From contig BAFH01000002.1 of NCBI GenBank assembly GCA_000296795.1, positions 652,686 through 716,685 of the forward strand: a stretch of 64,000 nucleotides of DNA, read 5' to 3'. The notes beneath the pieces are model-generated. The model was not told the DNA's origin. It made no database searches and saw nothing but the letters and a program-made list of their open reading frames with translations. The position numbers and the translations under genes were made by a program. This stretch comes from Candidatus Jettenia caeni (GTDB lineage Bacteria; Planctomycetota; Brocadiia; Brocadiales; Brocadiaceae). Shown here piece by piece: positions 1 through 10,124 of this stretch. How positions within the stretch are numbered: position 1 is the stretch's first letter; each line of letters starts with the position of its first letter.

Positions 1-872
1 TACTTTATGAGAAGATCAGATGTGATCTTAGTAACTCCTGGTGGCAAATTGTTAAAGAGATCATAGCAGAGAACCTGAAGCTGCACAGGTTCAACAAATT
101 GTCCAATGGTATCTTTTGAACCTTTTACCCTGATCTTAAGCAATTCTTCCACAAGATGTTCAGCTACCCCTTCTGCAAATGTGTAGCCAGTGCCATCTAA
201 TGGCTTGCTGACCGCTTCGCATGCCGCTTTTTCTCTTAAACGCTCTAACGGATAACGGATACGTAGCCTTTTGGGCAGGAAATCGACATAAGGGTCTAAA
301 TTTGCAAGAAAATCTTCTCTGATGATAAATAGAACTCGTAATAGATGATCAGCCTCAAGGGCGGAGTTTACTTGACGAAAAAAATCTTCTCGTTCCTTCC
401 AATGTTCTGGATATGAAGTAAATATTTCCTCGAATTGATCGAAAATGGCTACTCTCAAAACTGGACGATCTTTTTTATCCTTTCCACGTTTGAATTTTTC
501 CAAAAAGGTTATAAGAGAGAAGGAGAGAAGCGATCTGGGATTTTCAATCTCTCCTACCCAGCTCGACAAAGTGTTAAAGACGTAGATGTTAAATTTTTCT
601 TTGGGATCCAGATCTTCTGGCTCAAAGCCATGCACCCTAGCAACAGGGAGCACTTGACACTTATCAGCCTTGAGTAGAGGAATGACTCCAGCATTCATGA
701 GTGATGTCTTGCCAGCTCCTGACTGGGCATAAAGTAGAACTGTACGATGGGCAATAATGAGAGACGCAAGTTCTTCTATTTCACGATCACGCCCAAAAAA
801 CGGGCATGGATCTTCCTCTTTAAAAGGACGTGGTCCCGGGTAAGGATTAATATTCGTTGTTTTACCAAACAT
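1..872 (-). CDS. nSTAND1-type P-loop ATPase (partial, C-terminus beyond window)
   Basis: The protein starts at the ATG at 872. Its first residues match the nSTAND1 signature: PYPGPRPFKEEDPCPFFGRD, then E-x-x-E-L. A Walker A, SGAGKTSLMNAG, follows at about residues 46-57, and a Walker B-like VAIFDQFEE with acidic residues lies further on. STAND ATPases are oligomerising sensors that switch effector domains on. The ribosome site GGAGG overlaps the stop of the upstream SIR2 gene, leaving 8 bp between the genes, so translation is probably coupled. The C-terminal sensor region lies outside the window. Family call from sequence; a defence role is inferred from context. Confidence 0.85.
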   Translation of the reverse strand, partial: MFGKTTNINPYPGPRPFKEEDPCPFFGRDREIEELASLIIAHRTVLLYAQSGAGKTSLMNAGVIPLLKADKCQVLPVARVHGFEPEDLDPKEKFNIYVFNTLSSWVGEIENPRSLLSFSLITFLEKFKRGKDKKDRPVLRVAIFDQFEEIFTSYPEHWKEREDFFRQVNSALEADHLLRVLFIIREDFLANLDPYVDFLPKRLRIRYPLERLREKAACEAVSKPLDGTGYTFAEGVAEHLVEELLKIRVKGSKDTIGQFVEPVQLQVLCYDLFNNLPPGVTKITSDLLIK

Positions 873-880
873 AGGAAAAT

Positions 881-1765
881 TTACCTCCAGTGTTTTCGGA
901 ATTCAATTGCAAACTCTTTGGCATTTCCCCAGTAAACTCGAATTTTCATATTGCCAAAATACTTCTCAAGATACTCTTTTTGTTTTTTCCAACCCTTAGT
1001 CGAACTGTTAGGAGGTATCTGAACGGATAGGGTAAAGCTACGCACGCTTGATTCTATAGATTCGACTAAGCCTTTGAAAATTACACGGAAATTCATGTCA
1101 GCCATCCGATACCCAATAAAGAGAAGAGATCCCCGTGAGAGAGCACACTGGATAATCGGAGGAATAAGCTGCTGCAGATTGTTTCTGGAGATATTTACTA
1201 GAAAGTCGAGATAATCATCTTCGCTAATAACTATAGATTCCGGTACCTTATCGTGACCATGCAAATGAAATACAACAGGGTTTTTCTCTGTAGGTTTAAA
1301 CCCTTCATCAAAAATGGAGGGTAAATCTTTGACATGCTTATTCCAACGACACAATTCTCGTTCCGGACTCTTATTATAAACGTTTAGAGCCCTGATAATT
1401 AGATCATCATAATTGGTAGTCATATAAATGCGGAAAGGCATTTCTGCAAGGAGACTGAGAATTTCATCAGGAGCTCTAAAAAAATTAGATAACTCAGCTT
1501 CTTTTTGCTGAAGTCGTTCCTTAAGTACCCTCAGAATTTCTTTCTTAGGAAACATAGGACTGCTTTTTGTCGCTAAAAATTGAGCAACTCGAATAAGATC
1601 TTCTTTAGAAGAATCTTTGAATGGATATTCATGCTTATTCGCAAGTTCTGTAGCAACCTCGCGGCCAAGAGGGAGAATATCTCCATTGGCTCCAGCCCCC
1701 AGAAATGGGATGCATTTACCATCCTTTATATCAGTAATAAGATCTTGCCATTCCATTTCTTCCAT
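881..1765 (-). CDS. SIR2-like domain protein (putative NAD-consuming effector)
   Basis: The protein has about 294 residues. It carries the SIR2 nucleotide-binding loop FLGAGAN near residues 21-27, the TTNYDDL motif with the conserved Asn, the HLHGH segment with the catalytic His, and a late GYRMADMNF motif. This pattern is typical of bacterial SIR2-like effectors (NAD hydrolases of several antiphage systems) rather than of zinc-binding protein deacetylases; no CxxC zinc pairs are visible. The ATG at 1765 is preferred because GAGGAG lies 7 bases upstream, although an in-frame TTG extends the frame to 1780. It sits directly upstream of the nSTAND ATPase. NADase activity is inferred, not shown. 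Confidence 0.8.
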   Translation of the reverse strand: MEEMEWQDLITDIKDGKCIPFLGAGANGDILPLGREVATELANKHEYPFKDSSKEDLIRVAQFLATKSSPMFPKKEILRVLKERLQQKEAELSNFFRAPDEILSLLAEMPFRIYMTTNYDDLIIRALNVYNKSPERELCRWNKHVKDLPSIFDEGFKPTEKNPVVFHLHGHDKVPESIVISEDDYLDFLVNISRNNLQQLIPPIIQCALSRGSLLFIGYRMADMNFRVIFKGLVESIESSVRSFTLSVQIPPNSSTKGWKKQKEYLEKYFGNMKIRVYWGNAKEFAIEFRKHWR

Positions 1766-1885
1766 TATTGTGCTCCTCAAAATATTTTTTGTTATGATCT
1801 TTTTCTAATGTGTTTGACATTTAAAACCACTAATTAGCTATAACTAGGCATAAGCCCAACAGCAACACTGTTTTTATGAAAAATG

Positions 1886-2515
1886 TTATTGTTGCTTTTC
1901 CTTTGTATCTTCTTGTTTTTCCTTAGAAGTACCTTCCATTTGTTTTTCAGTAATGCGATCTTTTCCTTTTTCCGGCTTGGTAAGCAAGGTCTCTGATACT
2001 TCTTTCAGTTTCAGTATGGCCTGTTCTGAAAACAATCCTGCCAAAGCAGCCATTGCCATAAAACCAAAGGGGCTGGTTTCTCCCGTTTCCGCATGAGGGA
2101 AAAAACCTCCACGAATAATGAGATAAAAGAGGAGTCCAAGGGTTGCTCCAATGAAGGGTAGCATAATATACATAGCAAGCCAACTCCACACGAGTTCCCG
2201 ATTGCCTACATACTTATAAAATGATCTGAGGGCATGAACCAGACTGCCAAGCGCACCTGAAAGGGTTACAATAAGGATAGCACATAGCTCATTCGGAATT
2301 TTGATTGAAAATACCGAGAAAAGAAAGGTTACTGTTCGATCAGGATTTAGTTCATTTGACCTGGATGGCCAGAGTGTTATAATGCCATACAGAAGGAGAC
2401 CAGAGAAAATGATAAGGTATGCCATAGTTGAAGCAATACCTATTATACCAACCGGCTTATCACCTATTTTCTTAAGTTCCTGATCTTCAGTAGTTTTATC
2501 AGATATGCCTGCCAT
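1886..2515 (-). CDS. Four-helix membrane protein of the SIR2/STAND operon
   Basis: This is a hypothetical membrane protein of 209 residues if it starts at the ATG at 2515; an upstream ATG at 2596 adds 27 basic residues. It has four hydrophobic stretches: IIGIASTMAYLIIFSGLLLY, a second around ELCAILIVTLSGALGSL, a third around LAMYIMLPFIGATLGLLFYL, and a shorter one around GFMAMAALAGLF. The tail is highly charged and Lys/Glu/Gln-rich. A gap of about 120 bp separates it from the SIR2 gene, so it probably belongs to the same operon. It could be the membrane component of a conflict system, but no named family was recognised with certainty. Confidence 0.65.
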   Translation of the reverse strand: MAGISDKTTEDQELKKIGDKPVGIIGIASTMAYLIIFSGLLLYGIITLWPSRSNELNPDRTVTFLFSVFSIKIPNELCAILIVTLSGALGSLVHALRSFYKYVGNRELVWSWLAMYIMLPFIGATLGLLFYLIIRGGFFPHAETGETSPFGFMAMAALAGLFSEQAILKLKEVSETLLTKPEKGKDRITEKQMEGTSKEKQEDTKEKQQ

Positions 2516-2982
2516 TTTTATCCTCAATTTTGTAAAAGAAGAAAGAGATTGCTTAGGAAAAAGCCATCGCAACGACAGGTTGTGGATTCGCTTCATTCAC
2601 TCCCCGCCCTTACGGGTCCAATTTTGCAAATTGAACCCGTATATTTTGCATGGTCGCTAGTTCATAGCGTTTTCATAGTTAAACATAGGGGAATATTCCA
2701 AATTGAGGATTCAGGTTAGAAACCTGAATCCGTCCAGAGAATTATAGTATATCCTACTTTTGCACAAGCTCTTTAGGGTTACCTAGCAAGACTAAAGCCT
2801 TGCCCTACATCGATTCCGTTTTTTCATCAGGAGAGACTATAAGATTTTACGTCTCTACTGCCCAAGGTAGTCATGTATAACTCATGTAAATACCGAGTGA
2901 AAGAATAATGACCAGGAATATTTCTTGGTAAGTTGTCTATAGTAGTCATTCCTATCTCCGCCCAGGGCCTTGTTGATATCCT
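2516..2982. other. Non-coding stretch with two hairpins and a dispersed-repeat end
   Basis: No convincing gene. It holds an imperfect palindrome at 2611-2641 (TACGGGT-c-CAATTT, loop TGC, complementary arm) and a perfect 11-bp hairpin with a 3-base loop at 2707-2731 (GGATTCAGGTT/AACCTGAATCC). The segment around 2773-2812 ends in TTGCCCTAC, the same end as the small repeat at 11569-11642. The interval splits the minus-strand operon and suggests repeat insertion between its genes. Confidence 0.55.
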
Positions 2983-3954
2983 TTATTTATCCACATCTTT
3001 GACCTTCTGCCTTATTTCTCGCTTATTTGCTGGTTCTATTGATTTGGGTGTAGTACCTTCAGAATTTCCTGCAAGTGTAGTATTTCCAAGTATTTTTTGT
3101 AAAAGTATATCCTTCTTACTTGAATCGGCAACTTCTACACGAGTAAGACGCTGGCCTGCAATAGATTCTAATTCGGAGAGGAGATAATCTACCTGTTCAC
3201 TAGATAACAACGGCGCTGTTGCTACATCGTTATTTATCATTTCTCTCAATTCCCCCTGTCCATTGAGCGATTTTTGCAGCATTTGAAGCAATTTTTCTGC
3301 ATGAGATTGCGACGTAATTGATGTTTTATTTTTCTTTATGTCGTAGAGCAACTCTTTACCGGTATTGAAATTAATTGTTTGCGCACGTGGTATAATAACT
3401 TCACCAACTGCTTTTGACATCGAGGTGAGATTTGCTGCCTTTTCTTTATCCTTAGATTTTAATGCTGTAAGCAATGTATCGTAGCTAGTCTGACTTAGGT
3501 CAATATGTACAGAACTAACATTCTTGTTAATCTCTACAATAAGATAGGTGTTATCGATATAAGGCCTATTTTTCTTTTCCTTTTTAATATTTCCCTCCTC
3601 ATCTATTACTTTAATATCATCAAATTTAGTCTTCCAACAAACTATCCCTTCGTTCTCATCGAGAGCTAGTTCGTCCCATGGAATATTACTCTCCTGATTT
3701 TCCTTTCGGTCACATCGTATGATGACGTAGTTTCCGGCTTCAAGGTTAAAATGGCTTAAATTATCTAACCCACCTTTTGGATCCAGCACCATGGAGTATC
3801 TGAATTCAATATCATTCAGATCAGTGTTTACTAAAGCCTGACCAAATCCATTTAACAATTTTAATATTGGAGAAGCAGGAGGGTAAGCCATCGAGCCTAC
3901 ATCAGCTAAGCCCTGCAACAAGGCCTTAATTTGGTCTGAGTTTGTGTCGAGCAA
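2983..3954 (-). CDS. Uncharacterised protein linked to the SIR2/STAND operon (start doubtful)
   Basis: A soluble protein of 323 residues from a TTG at 3954, with no signal peptide or membrane segment. Its middle is beta-rich (around LEAGNYVIIRCDRKEN), and its C-terminal third is helical and charged. No family recognised. The TTG lacks a ribosome site and lies three codons after an in-frame TAG (3961-3963) that ends the preceding ORF. The minus-strand interval from about 4045 to 3945 also has an open frame (NNMPIYGPIEYDGASFAF, then RIAIFARH) that reads more like protein than the annotated frame. The true N-terminus is therefore probably upstream and broken by frameshifts. Confidence 0.5.
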   Translation of the reverse strand: MLDTNSDQIKALLQGLADVGSMAYPPASPILKLLNGFGQALVNTDLNDIEFRYSMVLDPKGGLDNLSHFNLEAGNYVIIRCDRKENQESNIPWDELALDENEGIVCWKTKFDDIKVIDEEGNIKKEKKNRPYIDNTYLIVEINKNVSSVHIDLSQTSYDTLLTALKSKDKEKAANLTSMSKAVGEVIIPRAQTINFNTGKELLYDIKKNKTSITSQSHAEKLLQMLQKSLNGQGELREMINNDVATAPLLSSEQVDYLLSELESIAGQRLTRVEVADSSKKDILLQKILGNTTLAGNSEGTTPKSIEPANKREIRQKVKDVDK

Positions 3955-3960
3955 AGATTG

Positions 3961-4356
3961 CTATACGAAAAGCGAAAGATGCACCGTCATATTCGATAGG
4001 GCCATAGATAGGCATGTTGTTGAAATTGAGAAACTGACCTTTAATTGGCCTTCAGTCACTCCATAATATTTCTGGGAAGAACCGGTTTCCCACCCGGTTA
4101 TAAATCCTTTCTCAGCAAGCATTTCAAGGGCTTCCTGAACCTTTGATTTTTCTTGTTCTATAACAACCACCTTTGGAATCCACCATTTGAGAATACCGTC
4201 TATCGTATCCTTTGCATCCGGGTTTCTCATGAGATAATGAAGGATATCCCAGATTACTATTTGATTGCTATCAGGTAAGTGATTTTCACCCAAAGGATAC
4301 TGCCTTTCCCTTGTAGTTGAATTGTTTCTGTCTAAAGCTGATAATTTTAATCGCAA
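3961..4356 (-). CDS. Winged-helix-like small protein, probably truncated or frameshifted
   Basis: The product is 131 residues from a TTG at 4356. The central part (IVIWDILHYLMRNPDAKDTI, then a helix and EALEMLAEKGFITGWETG followed by KYYGVTEGQ) looks like a winged helix-turn-helix with its wing. After GQL the sequence becomes low-quality (Ser/Thr-rich) up to a TAG at 3961. The start codon lies inside the left end of the 430-bp repeat, so the original 5' end may have been lost. It is in the same frame as the next gene (2983-3954), separated only by the TAG. A regulator or the N-terminal part of a larger operon protein are both possible. Confidence 0.5.
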   Translation of the reverse strand: MRLKLSALDRNNSTTRERQYPLGENHLPDSNQIVIWDILHYLMRNPDAKDTIDGILKWWIPKVVVIEQEKSKVQEALEMLAEKGFITGWETGSSQKYYGVTEGQLKVSFSISTTCLSMALSNMTVHLSLFV

Positions 4357-4770
4357 GGGAAATGCCAGGAAATTCCGTGACGGTTGAGTTTGCTGTAGAA
4401 AGAATTCACCGGAGAGGACGCAGAGGGCACGGAGTTTTTTATAAAGAGAGAAACAGATAAAAAGGAAGTTTTTGTATGATAATGGGTTAGATTACATGCA
4501 ACGATTTTCTCGGTACTGAATATTTAAAAAAATTTTTTCCCGTAATAAAAACCAAATAATTATTTTTTCCCTTTTCAAGACCTTACAACTATTGAGTAAG
4601 TGCGGTTTTTTTGCCGCAGGGGTTTTTAGGCAAATTCCAGGAAATTGCTGAAAATACAAGGGAAAGAGGGGTGAGGAGAATTTACCTCAGGGGGTGGTAT
4701 TGTTTGCCGCAGTTGTGCTCAGGAATATTATTGGGACACAGATTTGCGCAGATGAATAAGATAAAAGTAA
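4338..4770. repeat. ~430-bp dispersed direct repeat, copy 1
   Basis: It aligns almost end to end with 8522-8952 at a constant offset near 4184, with small indels. Shared blocks include GCAAGGGAAATGCC, an 'accg(c)agaggacrcagaggg'-like segment, the mini-hairpin TGCGG-Tn-CCGCA, GAGGGGTGAGGAGAATTT-like text in slightly diverged form, and GTTGTGCTCAGGAATATTA. No open frame is conserved between the copies, so it is a non-coding repeat. Similar 'cgcagagg...' and 'acgcagat...' words occur in dispersed repeats of many environmental bacteria. Confidence 0.8.
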
Positions 4771-4945
4771 CATTTTAGTTTTGAAAAAACCCGGTTAAAT
4801 TTGATGCGATTGCCCTGCCAGCATAGCTGATGGTCTTGATTCTTCAATAGGCATGAGGGAAAGAAAAAGAACTTAATCTCACTCATCTCTCCGGTGCTCA
4901 GCAACATCCTTCTGCAGGAAATTAAATTTGGATTCTTTGTTGTAC

Positions 4946-4974
4946 TTGATAAGCGATTACGAATGTAGTATATT
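4946..4974 (+). promoter_or_regulatory. Sigma70-like promoter for the PIN/UPF0175 pair, possibly leaderless
   Basis: TTGATA, a 17-bp spacer, then TATATT. The -10 box ends 6 bases before the ATG at 4981, so transcription would start at or next to the start codon. No ribosome site is visible, which fits a leaderless transcript. Confidence 0.4.
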
Positions 4975-4980
4975 GTAAAC

Positions 4981-5475
4981 ATGGGAATCGTCTTTGATGC
5001 CTCAACGCTCATTCTGCTTGCAAAAATAGAACTGTTACGGGAAATAACAGAAGAGGTAGAAGTTATTATTCCAGAGAAGGTGAAGTCTGAGTGCCTTTTA
5101 AAAGAAAGTATAGATGGTACACTGATTTCAACCCTTATCAACGAAAAAAAGATTCGTGTGAAAAAGGCAGGAAATGGAGAGGCAATGAAAAAGATTCGGC
5201 ATGATTTCAGGATAGAAGCTGGGGAAGCTGAAGTCCTTTGGTTGGCTAGAAGGCTTGATTGTGTGATAGCAGTAGATGATGGACCGACATTAAAGGCATG
5301 TAAAATTATCGGTCAGCAATTCACAACCGCAATTCATCTTCTTTTAAATCTTGCAGTACGGAATAGATTGGAAAAATCCATGGCTTTGGCGAAGCTTGAG
5401 AAACTATCTGTCTATGGTAGATACAGTAAAAAAATAATTGAGGATGCTACTCAACGTCTGAAAGGAGGAAACTGA
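4981..5475 (+). CDS. PIN-domain ribonuclease toxin
   Basis: A protein of 164 residues with the PIN layout: an N-terminal acidic residue in IVFDASTLILLAKI, a central acidic cluster EAGEAEVLWLARRL, and a C-terminal VIAVDDGPTLKAC followed by GQQFTTAIHLL. PIN toxins are metal-dependent RNases. The gene overlaps the following UPF0175 gene by one base (TGATG at 5473-5477), with the toxin first, an order common for the DUF3368/UPF0175 type of toxin-antitoxin pair. AAAGGAGGAA just before the overlap serves the second gene. The target RNA is unknown. Confidence 0.8.
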   Translation: MGIVFDASTLILLAKIELLREITEEVEVIIPEKVKSECLLKESIDGTLISTLINEKKIRVKKAGNGEAMKKIRHDFRIEAGEAEVLWLARRLDCVIAVDDGPTLKACKIIGQQFTTAIHLLLNLAVRNRLEKSMALAKLEKLSVYGRYSKKIIEDATQRLKGGN

Positions 5476-5765
5476 TGGGGGTTATAAGCCTGAGATTAAA
5501 AGATAAAGATTTGGAGAGGATTGAAGAACTTTCCAAACTTGAACACAAGGATAAGTCAACGATAGCCAGAGAGCTTCTTGAATACGGCTGGGAGTTTTTG
5601 ATGATCAGATATTATAAGGAAAGAAAATTATCCTTAGAGGGATTCGCCAGAAAGCTTGATGTTTCAATAAGCGAAGCAATAGACTTATTGGCCAAACTTG
5701 GAATAGAAGCACCGATAGAATTCGATGAGTATCTGAAAGGTTTTGAGGTTTTTAGAGGTAAATAA
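5475..5765 (+). CDS. UPF0175/RHH-like antitoxin
   Basis: A protein of 96 residues. The N-terminal part (ISLRLKDKDLERIEELSKLE, then DKSTIARELLEYGW) looks like a ribbon-helix-helix DNA-binding unit. The C-terminal part (LSLEGFARKLDVSISEAIDL, then LAKLGI) matches the UPF0175 helix-turn-helix-like region. It follows the PIN toxin with a one-base overlap and a strong AAAGGAGG ribosome site, so it is probably the DNA-binding antitoxin and autoregulator. A truncated copy lies 530 bp downstream. Confidence 0.8.
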   Translation: MGVISLRLKDKDLERIEELSKLEHKDKSTIARELLEYGWEFLMIRYYKERKLSLEGFARKLDVSISEAIDLLAKLGIEAPIEFDEYLKGFEVFRGK

Positions 5766-5783
5766 GATGATATAAGAATTCAA

Positions 5784-6014
5784 ATCAGGAGACAGCAGTT
5801 ACTGCCTCATCCAGTGCTGTAGCAATAGCACTGGCATTGCTTATAGCAACTGCAGCAGCAAGTCTAACACAGAAGCTGCAACTCCTATAATCTTGTTGAC
5901 CTGCTTAAGCCTGTAAACAACTTGATCCATGCCGCTTGTTGTTCGACGGATGCTGCCTGTCGTACTATGTGAAATCCAGCCTTTTTAAGAAGCGTAATGA
6001 GTTTGTCTCCTGAT
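5784..6014. repeat. 231-bp segment bounded by 11-bp perfect inverted repeats
   Basis: The left end is ATCAGGAGACA (5784-5794) and the right end TGTCTCCTGAT (6004-6014), exact reverse complements. The segment carries only degenerate minus-strand coding fragments and ends 5 bp before the truncated antitoxin copy. It may be a small non-autonomous element or a relic of rearrangement. No transposase was seen. Confidence 0.45.
5785..6013 (-). pseudogene. Decayed minus-strand gene fragments (HicA-like start plus helical tail)
   Basis: Reading from 6013, SGDKLITLLKKAGFHIVRQ resembles the N-terminus of HicA (YcfA-like) mRNA-interferase toxins. A frame change then gives GSIRRTTSGMDQVVYRLKQ, then VNKIIGVAASV. 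Another gives LAAAVAISNASAIATALDEA, then VTAVS and a TGA at 5785. No start codon is present and at least two frame changes are needed. This is debris of one or two genes; the HicA call rests on a short stretch only. Confidence 0.45.
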
Positions 6015-6016
6015 AA

Positions 6017-6178
6017 TACCTGAGATTAAAAGATAAAGATTTGGAGAGGATTGAAGAACTTTCCAAACTTGAACATAAGGATAAGTCAACGATAGCCAGA
6101 GAGCTTCTTGAATACGGCTGGGAGTTTTTGATGATCAGATATTACAAGGAGAGGAAACTATTTCATTGGAAAACTTAA
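6017..6178 (+). pseudogene. Truncated second copy of the UPF0175 antitoxin
   Basis: Bases 6019-6160 repeat 5489-5630 (inside the intact antitoxin gene) with only a few substitutions, at a fixed offset of 530 bp. The copy lacks a start codon (a TAA precedes it in frame), keeps about 47 codons up to YYKERKL, then runs into unrelated sequence and stops at 6176-6178. The junction lies within 20 bp of the 3' end of the chagasin-like gene, so it marks a recombination boundary. Confidence 0.8.
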
Positions 6179-6507
6179 GGCAATACGATCACATCTATGT
6201 CATGTTGGGCCATTGGTATTTCAGGTGTCCATGGCCTGACCAATCGGAGATGACAACGAGCGGTGCCTGGCCGTCTACCAGTAACAGTAAGTGTAACAGG
6301 CGCCGGCTCGTTGGTTGGCGGTTCTTTCCGTTGAGGCGCAGGGCCGATTTTTATCTGAACAGTAGCTGCATCGCGGTTACCACCTATTACTGCAACCTGC
6401 CAGACATAACCGGCACTGGCAACCGATTGAAGAGGCACCCGGACTTCTGTACCGACCCGCACCTCTAGGCGATGCGGAAGTTTTTCAACGTATGATGTTC
6501 CGTTCAT
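6175..6507 (-). CDS. Chagasin-like (MEROPS I42) cysteine peptidase inhibitor
   Basis: A protein of 110 residues without a signal peptide. It shows the chagasin layout: an N-terminal strand (LEVRVGTEVRVPLQSVASAG, then YVW) matching the NPTTGYxW loop, and a late strand plus loop VTGRRPGTARCHLRLVRPW, where the RPW triplet corresponds to the RPWE loop that enters the active site of papain-type enzymes. The middle GxGG loop is poorly conserved. It begins 11 bp after the stop of the papain-like peptidase gene on the same strand, so the pair is probably co-transcribed, and inhibitor and peptidase families match biochemically. Function as inhibitor of its neighbour is inferred. Confidence 0.75.
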   Translation of the reverse strand: MNGTSYVEKLPHRLEVRVGTEVRVPLQSVASAGYVWQVAVIGGNRDAATVQIKIGPAPQRKEPPTNEPAPVTLTVTGRRPGTARCHLRLVRPWTPEIPMAQHDIDVIVLP

Positions 6508-6518
6508 ATCTAGTCAAC

Positions 6519-8429
6519 TCATGCCTGGCCTATAATTGGTCCCTCATACCATCCACTACGGTCACGCCAGTAGTGTTGTAGTTGATTATCAGTGCGAAGG
6601 ACGATGACTTCGAGGTTCATACCCCACTGACTCTCACACAGGCCGGCGACGGCCAGCACGTCATGACCAAATGTCGCGCTATGCCGCCACTGTTTATCAC
6701 CGGAGTTCCAGCGCCACCAGTGCTGAACCCGCTCACCGGCAGCCACACACAACTCAAAGTTCCCGTGCGGACCAGTTTCATCGTATATCCCGTATTGTCC
6801 TTGAATTATCACTGGCGGGCTTGTTATGCCTGAACCAAATATAGCTCCTGCATTCCAGATCATATTCATCTCATTACGCCAAAAATGCTGCATTGTTCTA
6901 TTATTGGAAACGGCGACTAATTCAAGGCTACCATGGGGAGAGCCAAATGTACTTTGAACCAGTGTCGCACCGGAGTATGCCAGGTTGTTCCCAAACCGGG
7001 GACCAAGATGCCAACCTGCCCCATCCCGCCAGAGGTGCTGGAGCTGTCCGCCGCTGACCAGTACCACAATCTCAAAATTACCGGGTGCATTGTAATCACC
7101 CTGGATAAAGCCTGGTACTCCCAGACAATCATTCGGACCAAACACACCACCATCGTTCCATGGCCCGGTTCCGCCACCAGGCCCCCACCAGTGGTGAAGA
7201 CGTTTCGATGTAGTTAGATAAATAACCTCCATGTTGCGGTTAAAAGTTGTTCCGGTTAGCGTAGGACAAATAGCCGCATCGGTCGCAAAACTCCCGGCAG
7301 TACCCCATGTCCAGGGAGGGCCTCCTTCTCTCCATCGGTGAAGTATCCGGCTACCATTTGCCCCCATCACCTCAAGGTTACGGTTCAATGAGCCATTTCC
7401 ACTTTCGTACAGATTACCGTTGTGAAGGCGACGCTTACTCCAGGGATCCGAATTAACATTTCTAACTCCCGCCTTAGCATAAGAGTCTATTCCGGAATCT
7501 CCATAGGCAATCCAACAATAACCGTTCATCCCCCATCCCTGGCCCCATGAATTTTTGCATAGCCATGCCTGGAGAGCATCACTGTAACCAATAACGAGCA
7601 TAAAGTGCGAACCAGCTTGGGTATTCGATGGATCCGTACTGCGGCGATAAACGCCGGTGGAATATCCAAAGAAATCGTTCCACACCTCAAGCCAGGTTAT
7701 CAACGGTCCAACCGTATCGATCCAATCTTTCGCCTGCTGGACAGTGCCGGTCCACTGAAATGCCGGGCCTCGCACAGTCCTGCCATTGCGGTCCTGAGTC
7801 GGTGTATACGGAGGGTTATTCGTAGTCCACGGGAAGCAACCCGGATCGGCAAATCCGTTATTTACAAAAAAATTTGAAACGTTTCCTATATTACCGTAGT
7901 CAGCACACTGAGCACCAATACCCCGGTGAACATCACCTTCAGAAAGCCGTGTCCATATGGCATCTTCAATTCGGACCATTGCTTCGACCAATGCCACACC
8001 AGCAAATGCCCAACATGCGTTACAACCATTCTGATCACGAATACTTGTAATCCAGTTTGCACCCCAACGGTTGCGCCAGTCAACAGAAGTTGCGGCTCCG
8101 GCTCCAGGGGGTATTGCCCTATCGGTTGGTTCGAGGATTTCTCCAAATCCAAGTCGGAATAATTCCTGCTTTCGGAACTGTTTTTCAATTGCCTCACGAG
8201 ATATGAATCCACGCTCAAGACGGCGAAGTGCCAGAAGCGGATTCGTACCGACATCCAAAACTTTGTGAAAATTAATTGGACTAACAGCCTCAGGTTTCGA
8301 TAACCCCTTTGGGTCACCGCCTAAACCACGGAACTGGATTACTTCATCATCCCTACGATCAATACCAGTCTGCCATGTTAATCCTTGCCGAGTAATAACT
8401 TCACGTAATTTACCAAATGTTAAAGCCAT
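6519..8429 (-). CDS. Papain-like (C1A) cysteine peptidase fused to a PLL-like beta-propeller
   Basis: A protein of 636 residues. Residues 1-115 look like a pro-region. The peptidase domain (about 115-330) keeps the full papain set: Gln133 and Cys139 in RDQNGCNACWAF, His275 in GSHFMLVIGY and Asn293 in CKNSWGQGWG. Residues 335-636 hold at least six repeats of the form N-L-E-V-x-n-L-x-H-W-W-R-x-n-W, as in PLL-type lectin-like seven-bladed propellers. No signal peptide is visible, so export would need another route. The ATG follows an AAGGAAAAAGG stretch. The base composition is clearly GC-richer than the flanks, suggesting horizontal gain. It is paired with a chagasin-like inhibitor. Confidence 0.85.
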   Translation of the reverse strand: MALTFGKLREVITRQGLTWQTGIDRRDDEVIQFRGLGGDPKGLSKPEAVSPINFHKVLDVGTNPLLALRRLERGFISREAIEKQFRKQELFRLGFGEILEPTDRAIPPGAGAATSVDWRNRWGANWITSIRDQNGCNACWAFAGVALVEAMVRIEDAIWTRLSEGDVHRGIGAQCADYGNIGNVSNFFVNNGFADPGCFPWTTNNPPYTPTQDRNGRTVRGPAFQWTGTVQQAKDWIDTVGPLITWLEVWNDFFGYSTGVYRRSTDPSNTQAGSHFMLVIGYSDALQAWLCKNSWGQGWGMNGYCWIAYGDSGIDSYAKAGVRNVNSDPWSKRRLHNGNLYESGNGSLNRNLEVMGANGSRILHRWREGGPPWTWGTAGSFATDAAICPTLTGTTFNRNMEVIYLTTSKRLHHWWGPGGGTGPWNDGGVFGPNDCLGVPGFIQGDYNAPGNFEIVVLVSGGQLQHLWRDGAGWHLGPRFGNNLAYSGATLVQSTFGSPHGSLELVAVSNNRTMQHFWRNEMNMIWNAGAIFGSGITSPPVIIQGQYGIYDETGPHGNFELCVAAGERVQHWWRWNSGDKQWRHSATFGHDVLAVAGLCESQWGMNLEVIVLRTDNQLQHYWRDRSGWYEGPIIGQA

Positions 8430-8521
8430 ACCTTTTTCCTTTCTTCACGTATATATCACGGAAAAGATTTTACCTATCAAAGTATTTCTTATTTTTGCAG
8501 TTGGATTTCATATATTCAAAG

Positions 8522-8952
8522 ATGATCATTTTAATTGCAAGGGAAATGCCGGGGGATTTTATGATAATTGAGTTTGTTATGAAAATGGGTTCACCGCAGA
8601 GGACACAAAGGGCGCAGAGATTTTTGTAAGGAAAGAAACAGATAAAGAGGAAGTATTTGTATGGTAAGGCCTTAAGTTAAGTACAACAATTCTCTCGATA
8701 ATGGGCATTGAAAAAGGGTTTTTATGATTTAGTGAGGTATGGATAATTATTTTTTTCTTTTTTAATACCTTACCATTCCTGAATAAGTGCGGCTTTTTTG
8801 CCGCAGGATTTTTGAGTCAATTTCCTGGAATTCCTTGAAATATAGGGAAAAAGGGGTGAGGAGAATTTGCCGCAGGGGAGGGATTTATTTGCCGCAGTTG
8901 TGCTCAGGAATATTATTGGGACGCGGATGCACGCAGATAAACAGGATAAAAT
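8522..8952. repeat. ~430-bp dispersed direct repeat, copy 2
   Basis: Same orientation as 4338-4770 and alignable over its whole length, including GCAAGGGAAATGCC, the TGCGGC-T6-GCCGCA hairpin near 8786-8804, TGAGGAGAATTTGCCGCAGG, and GTTGTGCTCAGGAATATTAT. It starts about 90 bp upstream of the peptidase start codon, so it may also carry or influence that gene's promoter. Confidence 0.8.
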
Positions 8953-9161
8953 CTTAGGCCTAGTTCCGATAGTAAAGGTGAAAAGGAAGAGGGGGAAGGT
9001 AAAGGGGGGAAAATATTTTTAGTCTACACTTTCGTTGTTTATGCGTGCTTATGTGTGGTTAAATTAATCAGCCGATAAAAATTTTCCCACATTTTTCTCT
9101 TTTCGTTTAGACTGAGATTGTCTCTTTGATAGCATCAGGTGGAGCAGTCTTTATAGAGGTC

Positions 9162-9292
9162 ATCCCAAAACCTTAATTTAGGTCTAGAATCATAAGGAGA
9201 GAGATTTCATACTCTGTAAGCCGGTTCCTGGGTGGCACTGACAAACTCTGTTTGTCAGTGCCACCCAGTCTGGAATCCCAAAACCTCAATTT
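9162..9292. repeat. Long hairpin flanked by short direct repeats
   Basis: A perfect 19-bp inverted repeat (CTGGGTGGCACTGACAAAC, 9228-9246; complement 9250-9268) with a 3-base loop TCT. Near-identical 18-bp direct repeats, ATCCCAAAACCTTAATTT at 9162 and ATCCCAAAACCTCAATTT at 9275, lie on either side. No T-tract follows, so it is not a typical terminator; it looks like a small palindromic repeat element. Confidence 0.6.
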
Positions 9293-9386
9293 CTTATCTG
9301 GGATCATTTGAAGATAGAGAGAGGTCCCGTACAGAATAGGTTTTGAGATAGCTTCTAGCATCCTCAAAGGAAAGACTACCTCGCCG

Positions 9387-9519
9387 GTCATTGCGAGGGT
9401 ATTGTCCGAAGCAATCCTAAAGGCAGAGATTGTGGAGCCTGTTCCGATCGTATCAGCAAGGAATCTCCGGGTTTGCTTCAGCTTTCGCCACGCAACCCCG
9501 CCTCATTCCTCGCAATGAC
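9387..9519. repeat. MITE-like element with 12-bp terminal inverted repeats
   Basis: GTCATTGCGAGG at 9387-9398 is matched by CCTCGCAATGAC at 9508-9519, with GAAGCAATCC and GGAATCTCC words inside. These end sequences are those of a widespread bacterial intergenic repeat. There is no coding capacity. With the rest of 8953-9650 it forms gene-free repeat-rich DNA. Confidence 0.65.
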
Positions 9520-9656
9520 AGTGTTAATTATTCCGTATGTTCCCTATATCAGCATACACCCAAAGACTCAACTTGCACCATATTCTGTTCGGCTTTATCT
9601 AAATGATTGAAAAAGAGATGCAGGAGAAAAGAATAGCTCCTTTTTCCCTTCAAAAC

Positions 9657-10124
9657 CTATTCCTTAGGAGGGTTGTCTAATGTTACAATCTCTACTTTAA
9701 TATTTGCCATTGAAAGTATCTCTTTGGCAAGGGCATCAGGATAATCGGTAAGGGTAACAATACGTTTGATTCCTACATTAACGAGCATTTTTGCACAGAG
9801 AGAGCATGGATGGGTTGTGCTGTAGAGAGTCGCTCCGGAAATCTTTATACCATAATTTGCCGCCTGAAGCAGGGCATTCATCTCGGCATGAAGACCACGG
9901 CACAGCTCATGTCTTTCCCCTGGCGGCACCTTGAGTTGTTCCCGTAAACAGCCAATGTCCAGACAATGCTGGATTCCGCTTGGCGCGCCGTTATAGCCTG
10001 TCGTCAGGATATGTTTATCGATAACCAGAAGGGCGCCTACCTGTCTCCGCAAACAGGTAGACCTCTGTGCTACTTCCCTGGTGATTCGTAGAAAATATTC
10101 ATCCCATGATGGTCTTTTGTTCAT
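9657..10124 (-). CDS. dCMP deaminase family protein (ComEB-like)
   Basis: A protein of 155 residues from the ATG at 10124 ([14 protein letters not shown]). It converts dCMP to dUMP for thymidylate synthesis. The zinc site is present as HAEMNAL with the proton-shuttling Glu, and PCSLCAKML. The frame stays open upstream inside mnmE, but the ATG lies one base from the mnmE stop codon (10126-10128), fixing the start and suggesting coupled translation. Length and motifs are normal for the family. Confidence 0.9.

Follow-up and report, generated by a model that had tools for sequence, protein, structure and literature searches.

In the window, i.e. the whole stretch of 64,000 nucleotides of Candidatus Jettenia caeni DNA analysed here, two open reading frames on the minus strand encode a papain-family (C1A) peptidase and, 11 bp downstream of it, a chagasin-type inhibitor (I42), an arrangement whose coordinates agree with the initial annotation. 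Our preferred reading, which we regard as rather probable, is that they constitute a horizontally acquired two-gene module, in which a leaderless papain-like peptidase is restrained by a cognate cytosolic chagasin inhibitor. The pair looks like a mobile protease accompanied by its own safety catch, and not like a proven toxin.

The peptidase, its propeller and the inhibitor loops

The peptidase (positions 6519-8429, minus strand; 636 residues), assigned by Pfam and by its homologues, combines a C1A catalytic domain with a C-terminal PLL-like propeller and is apparently intact, as judged from its sequence. The catalytic domain, residues 113-317 (7479-8093, minus strand), matches the Pfam family Peptidase_C1 (PF00112) with 103.3 bits (cut-off 20.7; E 2.6e-29), and, among solved structures, dipeptidyl peptidase I and cathepsins are closest to it in sequence. 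The Gln-Cys-His-Asn set proposed previously is indeed complete and consists of Gln133, Cys139, His275 and Asn293, without variation across five aligned homologues. Furthermore, every member of the peptidase subfamily carries Asp132 immediately before the oxyanion Gln133. Residues 1-112 (8094-8429, minus strand) can be aligned in the homologues and have a Trp-containing start, as in other prokaryotic C1 enzymes; this region could represent a pro-region. A model of the whole peptidase, built from five sequences, was poor (mean pLDDT 47), with the propeller blocks mostly at about 60-89, i.e. at moderate confidence.

The propeller covers residues 331-636 (6522-7439, minus strand), where repeat alignment reveals six units, as compared with the seven blades of PLL-type lectins. 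No Pfam family scored above its cut-off on this region; in a Foldseek search of the PDB, the top 16 matches were all PLL/PHL lectins of Photorhabdus (E about 1e-11), which bears out the PLL-like propeller of the initial annotation. These lectins are similar in fold but are stand-alone, seven-bladed proteins, whereas here six repeats are fused to a protease. The propeller probably serves as an anchor, holding the enzyme to glycans or to the substrate; the more specific suggestion of a glycan-targeted protease gained no positive evidence, lectin activity being deduced from the fold alone.

The inhibitor (6175-6507, minus strand; 110 residues) scores 30.9 bits with the Pfam family I42 (PF09394; curated cut-off 27.2), and its model (pLDDT 83) retrieves EhICP2, chagasin and the ICP of Pseudomonas aeruginosa with Foldseek, so that its chagasin-like identity holds. 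The inhibitors of the relatives L005-L009 fall below the I42 cut-off or are missed by the profile. By alignment to chagasin and homologues, loop L2, residues 28-36 (SVASAGYVW; 6400-6426, minus strand), is the counterpart of the chagasin NPTTGFxW; it has VASAG where the chagasin family has NPTTG, Gly33 and Trp36 being retained but not NPTT. The L6 motif Arg91-Pro92-Trp93, assigned from sequence and alignment, is located at 6229-6237 (minus strand). The GYxW and RPW loops pointed out in the initial annotation are thus both present in the window inhibitor, but they are not strictly kept in homologues, where GYxW drifts to GNxW and RPW becomes R-x-[WF] (RSF, RPF, RRF). This loss is partial: Gly33, Trp36, Arg91 and an aromatic residue at position 93 (Trp or Phe) stay in the aligned inhibitors, and other positions are lost. 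The L4 motif GxGG is missing from the window inhibitor and its aligned homologues, with a variable, Pro-rich stretch there instead. The missing GxGG and the reduction of RPW to Arg-x-aromatic in homologues weaken the case for a dedicated pair.

The register of the inhibitor is identical to that of chagasin (Ser31, Ala32, Gly33, Trp36, Arg91, Pro92 and Trp93). In chagasin, Thr31 and Thr32 lie close to the catalytic site, and the contact of Arg91 is with residue 18, an Asp in cruzain; the T31S and T32A variants retain a picomolar Ki (PMC2607524). Since the loop register is identical and Asp132 precedes the oxyanion Gln in all subfamily members, inhibition of the peptidase is plausible, and the chagasin-type protein probably blocks its neighbour. 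The chagasin fold, together with Arg91 and Asp132 retained as in chagasin and cruzain (PMC2607524), supports the idea of a dedicated pair. Among the linked papain-type peptidases, only that of Streptomyces canus has Asn18, and its inhibitor is devoid of R-x-W. Co-variation of Asp18 and Arg91 is thus suggestive, but we do not count it as proof: the lineages concerned are few, and Asp also occurs in several enzymes without linkage.

Neither protein has a hydrophobic leader, in agreement with the lack of signal peptides noticed before: the 12-residue Kyte-Doolittle maximum over the first 60 residues is 0.82 for the peptidase and 1.30 for the inhibitor. By hydropathy, a Sec leader is absent from the peptidase; non-Sec routes are possible.

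Linkage of peptidase and inhibitor genes

Relatives of the peptidase, 62-72% identical, were found in five genomes (three Nitrosomonadaceae, one Anaerolinea MAG and Kribbella steppae); the contig end truncates one Nitrosospira copy, and the gene of the Anaerolinea MAG is interrupted by one in-frame stop. In all five of these closer relatives, the start codon of a chagasin-like ORF overlaps the stop codon of the peptidase gene (ATGA or GTGA). The same pair, with a peptidase about 49% identical, is present in two more genomes of the order of the Nitrosomonadaceae relatives. The inhibitor gene is located directly behind the peptidase gene in 8/8 subfamily members, including the window, from four phyla; the linkage is therefore conserved outside the window genome in all seven other members, which belong to Pseudomonadota, Chloroflexota and Actinomycetota. 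The pairwise identities of peptidases and inhibitors are correlated (r 0.88, Mantel p 0.0002), and two close pairs give dN/dS values of 0.05-0.08 (peptidase) and 0.22-0.25 (inhibitor). According to these sequence comparisons, the inhibitor is a constrained gene, under purifying selection, that travelled with its neighbour while diverging faster. Collectively, the linkage, the overlapping frames, the correlated divergence and the purifying selection provide good support for the dedicated peptidase/inhibitor pair suggested initially.

The same data bear on the view that the inhibitor targets foreign proteases and is only incidentally encoded behind the peptidase. Exported bacterial chagasins, for instance Cip1, do act on foreign papain-like proteases (PMC5014320), but the window inhibitor has no leader, its linkage is kept across phyla and its divergence is correlated with that of the peptidase, and we consider this view extremely improbable.

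A decayed pair was observed in one genome of the order Propionibacteriales (L067, around 3600-5400), with a transposase-like ORF, IS110-like by sequence reading, inside the remnant of the propeller peptidase and with a frameshifted chagasin.

Outside the subfamily, pairs of a C1 peptidase and a chagasin occur in Anaerolineae, Propionibacteriales, Deinococcus, Streptomyces and Priestia; a survey for co-occurrence, recommended with the initial annotation, thus reveals that the pair recurs in unrelated bacterial groups. The chagasin of the Anaerolineae pair (L060) has the classical NPTTGY, GAGG and RPW, the Propionibacteriales pairs L066 and L068 have other repeat domains, and annotated plasmid pairs are found in Deinococcus aetherius, Streptomyces canus and Priestia megaterium. 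By hydropathy, no protein of these pairs has a clear leader; a leaderless C1 peptidase and a leaderless chagasin are found together in Actinomycetota, Chloroflexota, Deinococcota and Bacillota, beyond the subfamily. On plasmid pDAETH-2 of D. aetherius (L072, 3782-8099), the genes for the C1 peptidase, a hypothetical protein, the I42 inhibitor and a caspase-family protein are consecutive.

In an inhibitor-led survey of 497 Actinomycetota and Chloroflexota genomes, none of the 91 exported I42 ORFs had a C1 gene within reach. The survey also yielded three exported fusions of C1 and I42, and the complete leaderless I42 genes were beside a C1 gene in 3/3 cases. Five I42 frames were left out: contig ends truncate two of them, two others start within the domain, and the fifth is a borderline case with an evident lipobox. 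Among 158 Pseudomonadota genomes, 9/9 I42 genes are exported and without a C1 neighbour. Counted from the peptidase side, a chagasin neighbour accompanies five of ten leaderless C1 enzymes (including L069, whose longest frame was flagged as exported and which was counted as leaderless from an internal start) and none of 13 exported ones, with export judged by hydropathy, a searched flank of 1.5 kb (60 loci) or as much as about 5 kb (all others), and few linked cases. Exported single chains fusing a C1 peptidase and an I42 domain were observed at L162, L166 and L169. In three genomes of the phylum Chloroflexota (L172, L173 and L163), C1 peptidases of another subfamily, with a SCTANA-like motif, have a convergent leaderless I42 gene; at L163 the C1 and I42 genes nearly touch.

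That leaderless chagasins stand beside a C1 gene whereas exported ones do not, and that independent pairs exist elsewhere, supports the dedicated-pair reading. The split between exported and leaderless proteins suggests a second class of chagasins that, like those of trypanosomes, would control an endogenous papain-like enzyme. The role of bacterial chagasins was stated in 2016 as not elucidated, with one exported inhibitor of plant proteases shown (PMC5014320). In the literature searched, mostly without subscription journals, we found no description of the leaderless C1A/I42 pairing or of this split, though a prior mention is possible. Genes annotated merely as 'protease inhibitor I42' thereby acquire a testable function, and the pairs provide natural cognate enzymes and inhibitors to study.

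Putative restraint of the protease and comparison with known systems

By analogy with staphostatin/staphopain and Spi/SpeB, the likeliest role of the inhibitor would be cytoplasmic restraint of the cell's own protease. Both proteins would be cytoplasmic products of tightly coupled genes, and the three-loop edge of the inhibitor would plug the active-site cleft. In this arrangement, L2 would cover Cys139/His275, and Arg91 of L6 would come close to Asp132, whose counterpart in cruzain pairs with the chagasin arginine. With its cleft plugged in this manner, the protease, anchored through its propeller to glycans or substrate, would be inactive in its own cell until separated from the inhibitor, which could occur through lysis, a non-Sec export route, or loss or turnover of the inhibitor.

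A papain-like protease with an adjoining inhibitor is already a known kind of pair. In staphopain/staphostatin (C47/I57), SpeB/Spi and Bacteroides C10/Bfi-Bti, a papain-fold protease likewise has a small inhibitor gene a few bases away; these pairs are co-transcribed where tested, and staphostatins and Spi are thought to restrain staphopains and SpeB, protecting the producing cell (PMC3462683). The similar gene arrangement supports the dedicated-pair reading for the window. These systems belong, however, to other peptidase and inhibitor families and have no propeller. Moreover, staphopain, SpeB and the C10 proteases are secreted enzymes, whereas both proteins of the window pair are leaderless: the adjacent conserved inhibitor gene and the leaderless inhibitor are shared with the staphostatin/Spi type, but not the Sec-secreted protease, which weakens this reading.

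Cruzipain/chagasin of Trypanosoma cruzi represents the same two families (C1A/I42), with a leaderless chagasin governing an endogenous papain-like enzyme, and shares with the window pair its L2/L6 register and the Asp at position 18. On the other hand, it is eukaryotic, its genes are without operon pairing and its chagasin carries NPTTG and GxGG. Cruzipain is not known to possess a PLL propeller. The chagasins that bacteria export (Cip1 of Pseudomonas syringae and the P. aeruginosa ICP) share the I42 fold and family with the window inhibitor but, unlike it, carry a leader.

The lack of leaders on both proteins would also fit an intracellular suicide or defence module of toxin-antitoxin type, where the protease attacks the cell's own proteins once stress or infection removes the inhibitor. 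The mobile pairs are scattered patchily over several phyla and also occur on plasmids, which points in the same direction, as do the caspase-family gene adjoining the Deinococcus pair and a SIR2/ThsA-like gene 4.7 kb from the pair in the window. However, neither protein matches PADLOC, the related loci have no consistent defence neighbourhood and the SIR2-like gene is far off, and this explanation appears unlikely to us. We give similarly low credence to the general proposal that leaderless C1A/I42 pairs constitute a mobile, unnamed class of bacterial modules, akin to toxin-antitoxin or defence systems, in which loss of the chagasin unleashes a cytosolic protease.

The initial annotation also evoked a toxin/immunity pair, i.e. 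a contact-delivered antibacterial peptidase, with its propeller binding target-cell glycans and the chagasin as immunity protein. Such a pair could account for the adjacent partner genes, one of them diverging faster, and for the lectin fold of the propeller, but it is quite unlikely: no PAAR, LXG, Rhs, T7SS or similar delivery domain is present in the peptidase according to Pfam, none was seen among the neighbouring ORFs by reading, and the carriers are both Gram-positive and Gram-negative, with no common secretion locus nearby. A secretion marker, a delivery domain and a phage context were looked for and none was found, leaving this suggestion with no positive evidence. A phage origin was likewise rejected, as neither the window peptidase nor the one at L060 had a tblastn match in phage records; a scan of viral contigs brought up a single, distant C1.

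Acquisition of the pair and its genomic surroundings

The host genome has two copies of hydrazine synthase alpha and is hence that of an anammox bacterium, presumably of the Brocadiaceae. The window I42 gene is the only one found in it by the Pfam profile, and C1 genes are three. Horizontal acquisition of the pair is well supported. Among 294 genomes of the host's phylum, no full-length relative was found in the others, and the other sampled members of the host family yielded one match only, to a part of the propeller. The GC content of the pair is 50-53%, against 40% for the window. Repeat comparison showed that 6019-6161 is a 97% direct repeat (143 bp) of 5489-5631, a partial copy of a ribbon-helix-helix gene; it lies 13 bp away from where the inhibitor gene ends and could be an insertion scar. 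An imperfect direct repeat of about 460 bp (4311-4766 and 8495-8951; 73-85%, spacing 4184-4187) flanks the area. Elsewhere in the window, a SIR2-like protein with PADLOC matches to ThsA (7.7e-19) adjoins a small membrane protein (881-1780 and 1886-2596, both minus strand); the SIR2-like gene is possibly a defence gene.

Another C1 peptidase of the host genome also bears the PLL-like propeller (L025, G000:C4:292000-305000; 865-10068, minus strand), its N-terminal part being in a separate overlapping ORF. It has no chagasin neighbour, which weakens the dedicated-pair reading. This paralogue clusters with PatA-like, PatG and radical SAM genes and with Cys-rich short peptides, and the window peptidase might, as the paralogue may, process a ribosomal peptide, with the chagasin tuning its activity. 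Since the paired loci contain neither such genes nor leader-like peptides and the paralogue is without chagasin, we regard a role in peptide maturation as very unlikely. A RiPP context for the pair was indeed searched for and rejected: a leader-like peptide is absent from the window and the paired loci, and the upstream short ORFs include nothing recognisable. The RiPP-like cluster at L025 itself comprises a PatA-like S8 protease, PatG D and C domains, a YydG-like radical SAM/SPASM protein, DUF6895 and two Cys-rich short proteins with the common leader MK-[MI]-P-x-FIAE-x-SLYK.
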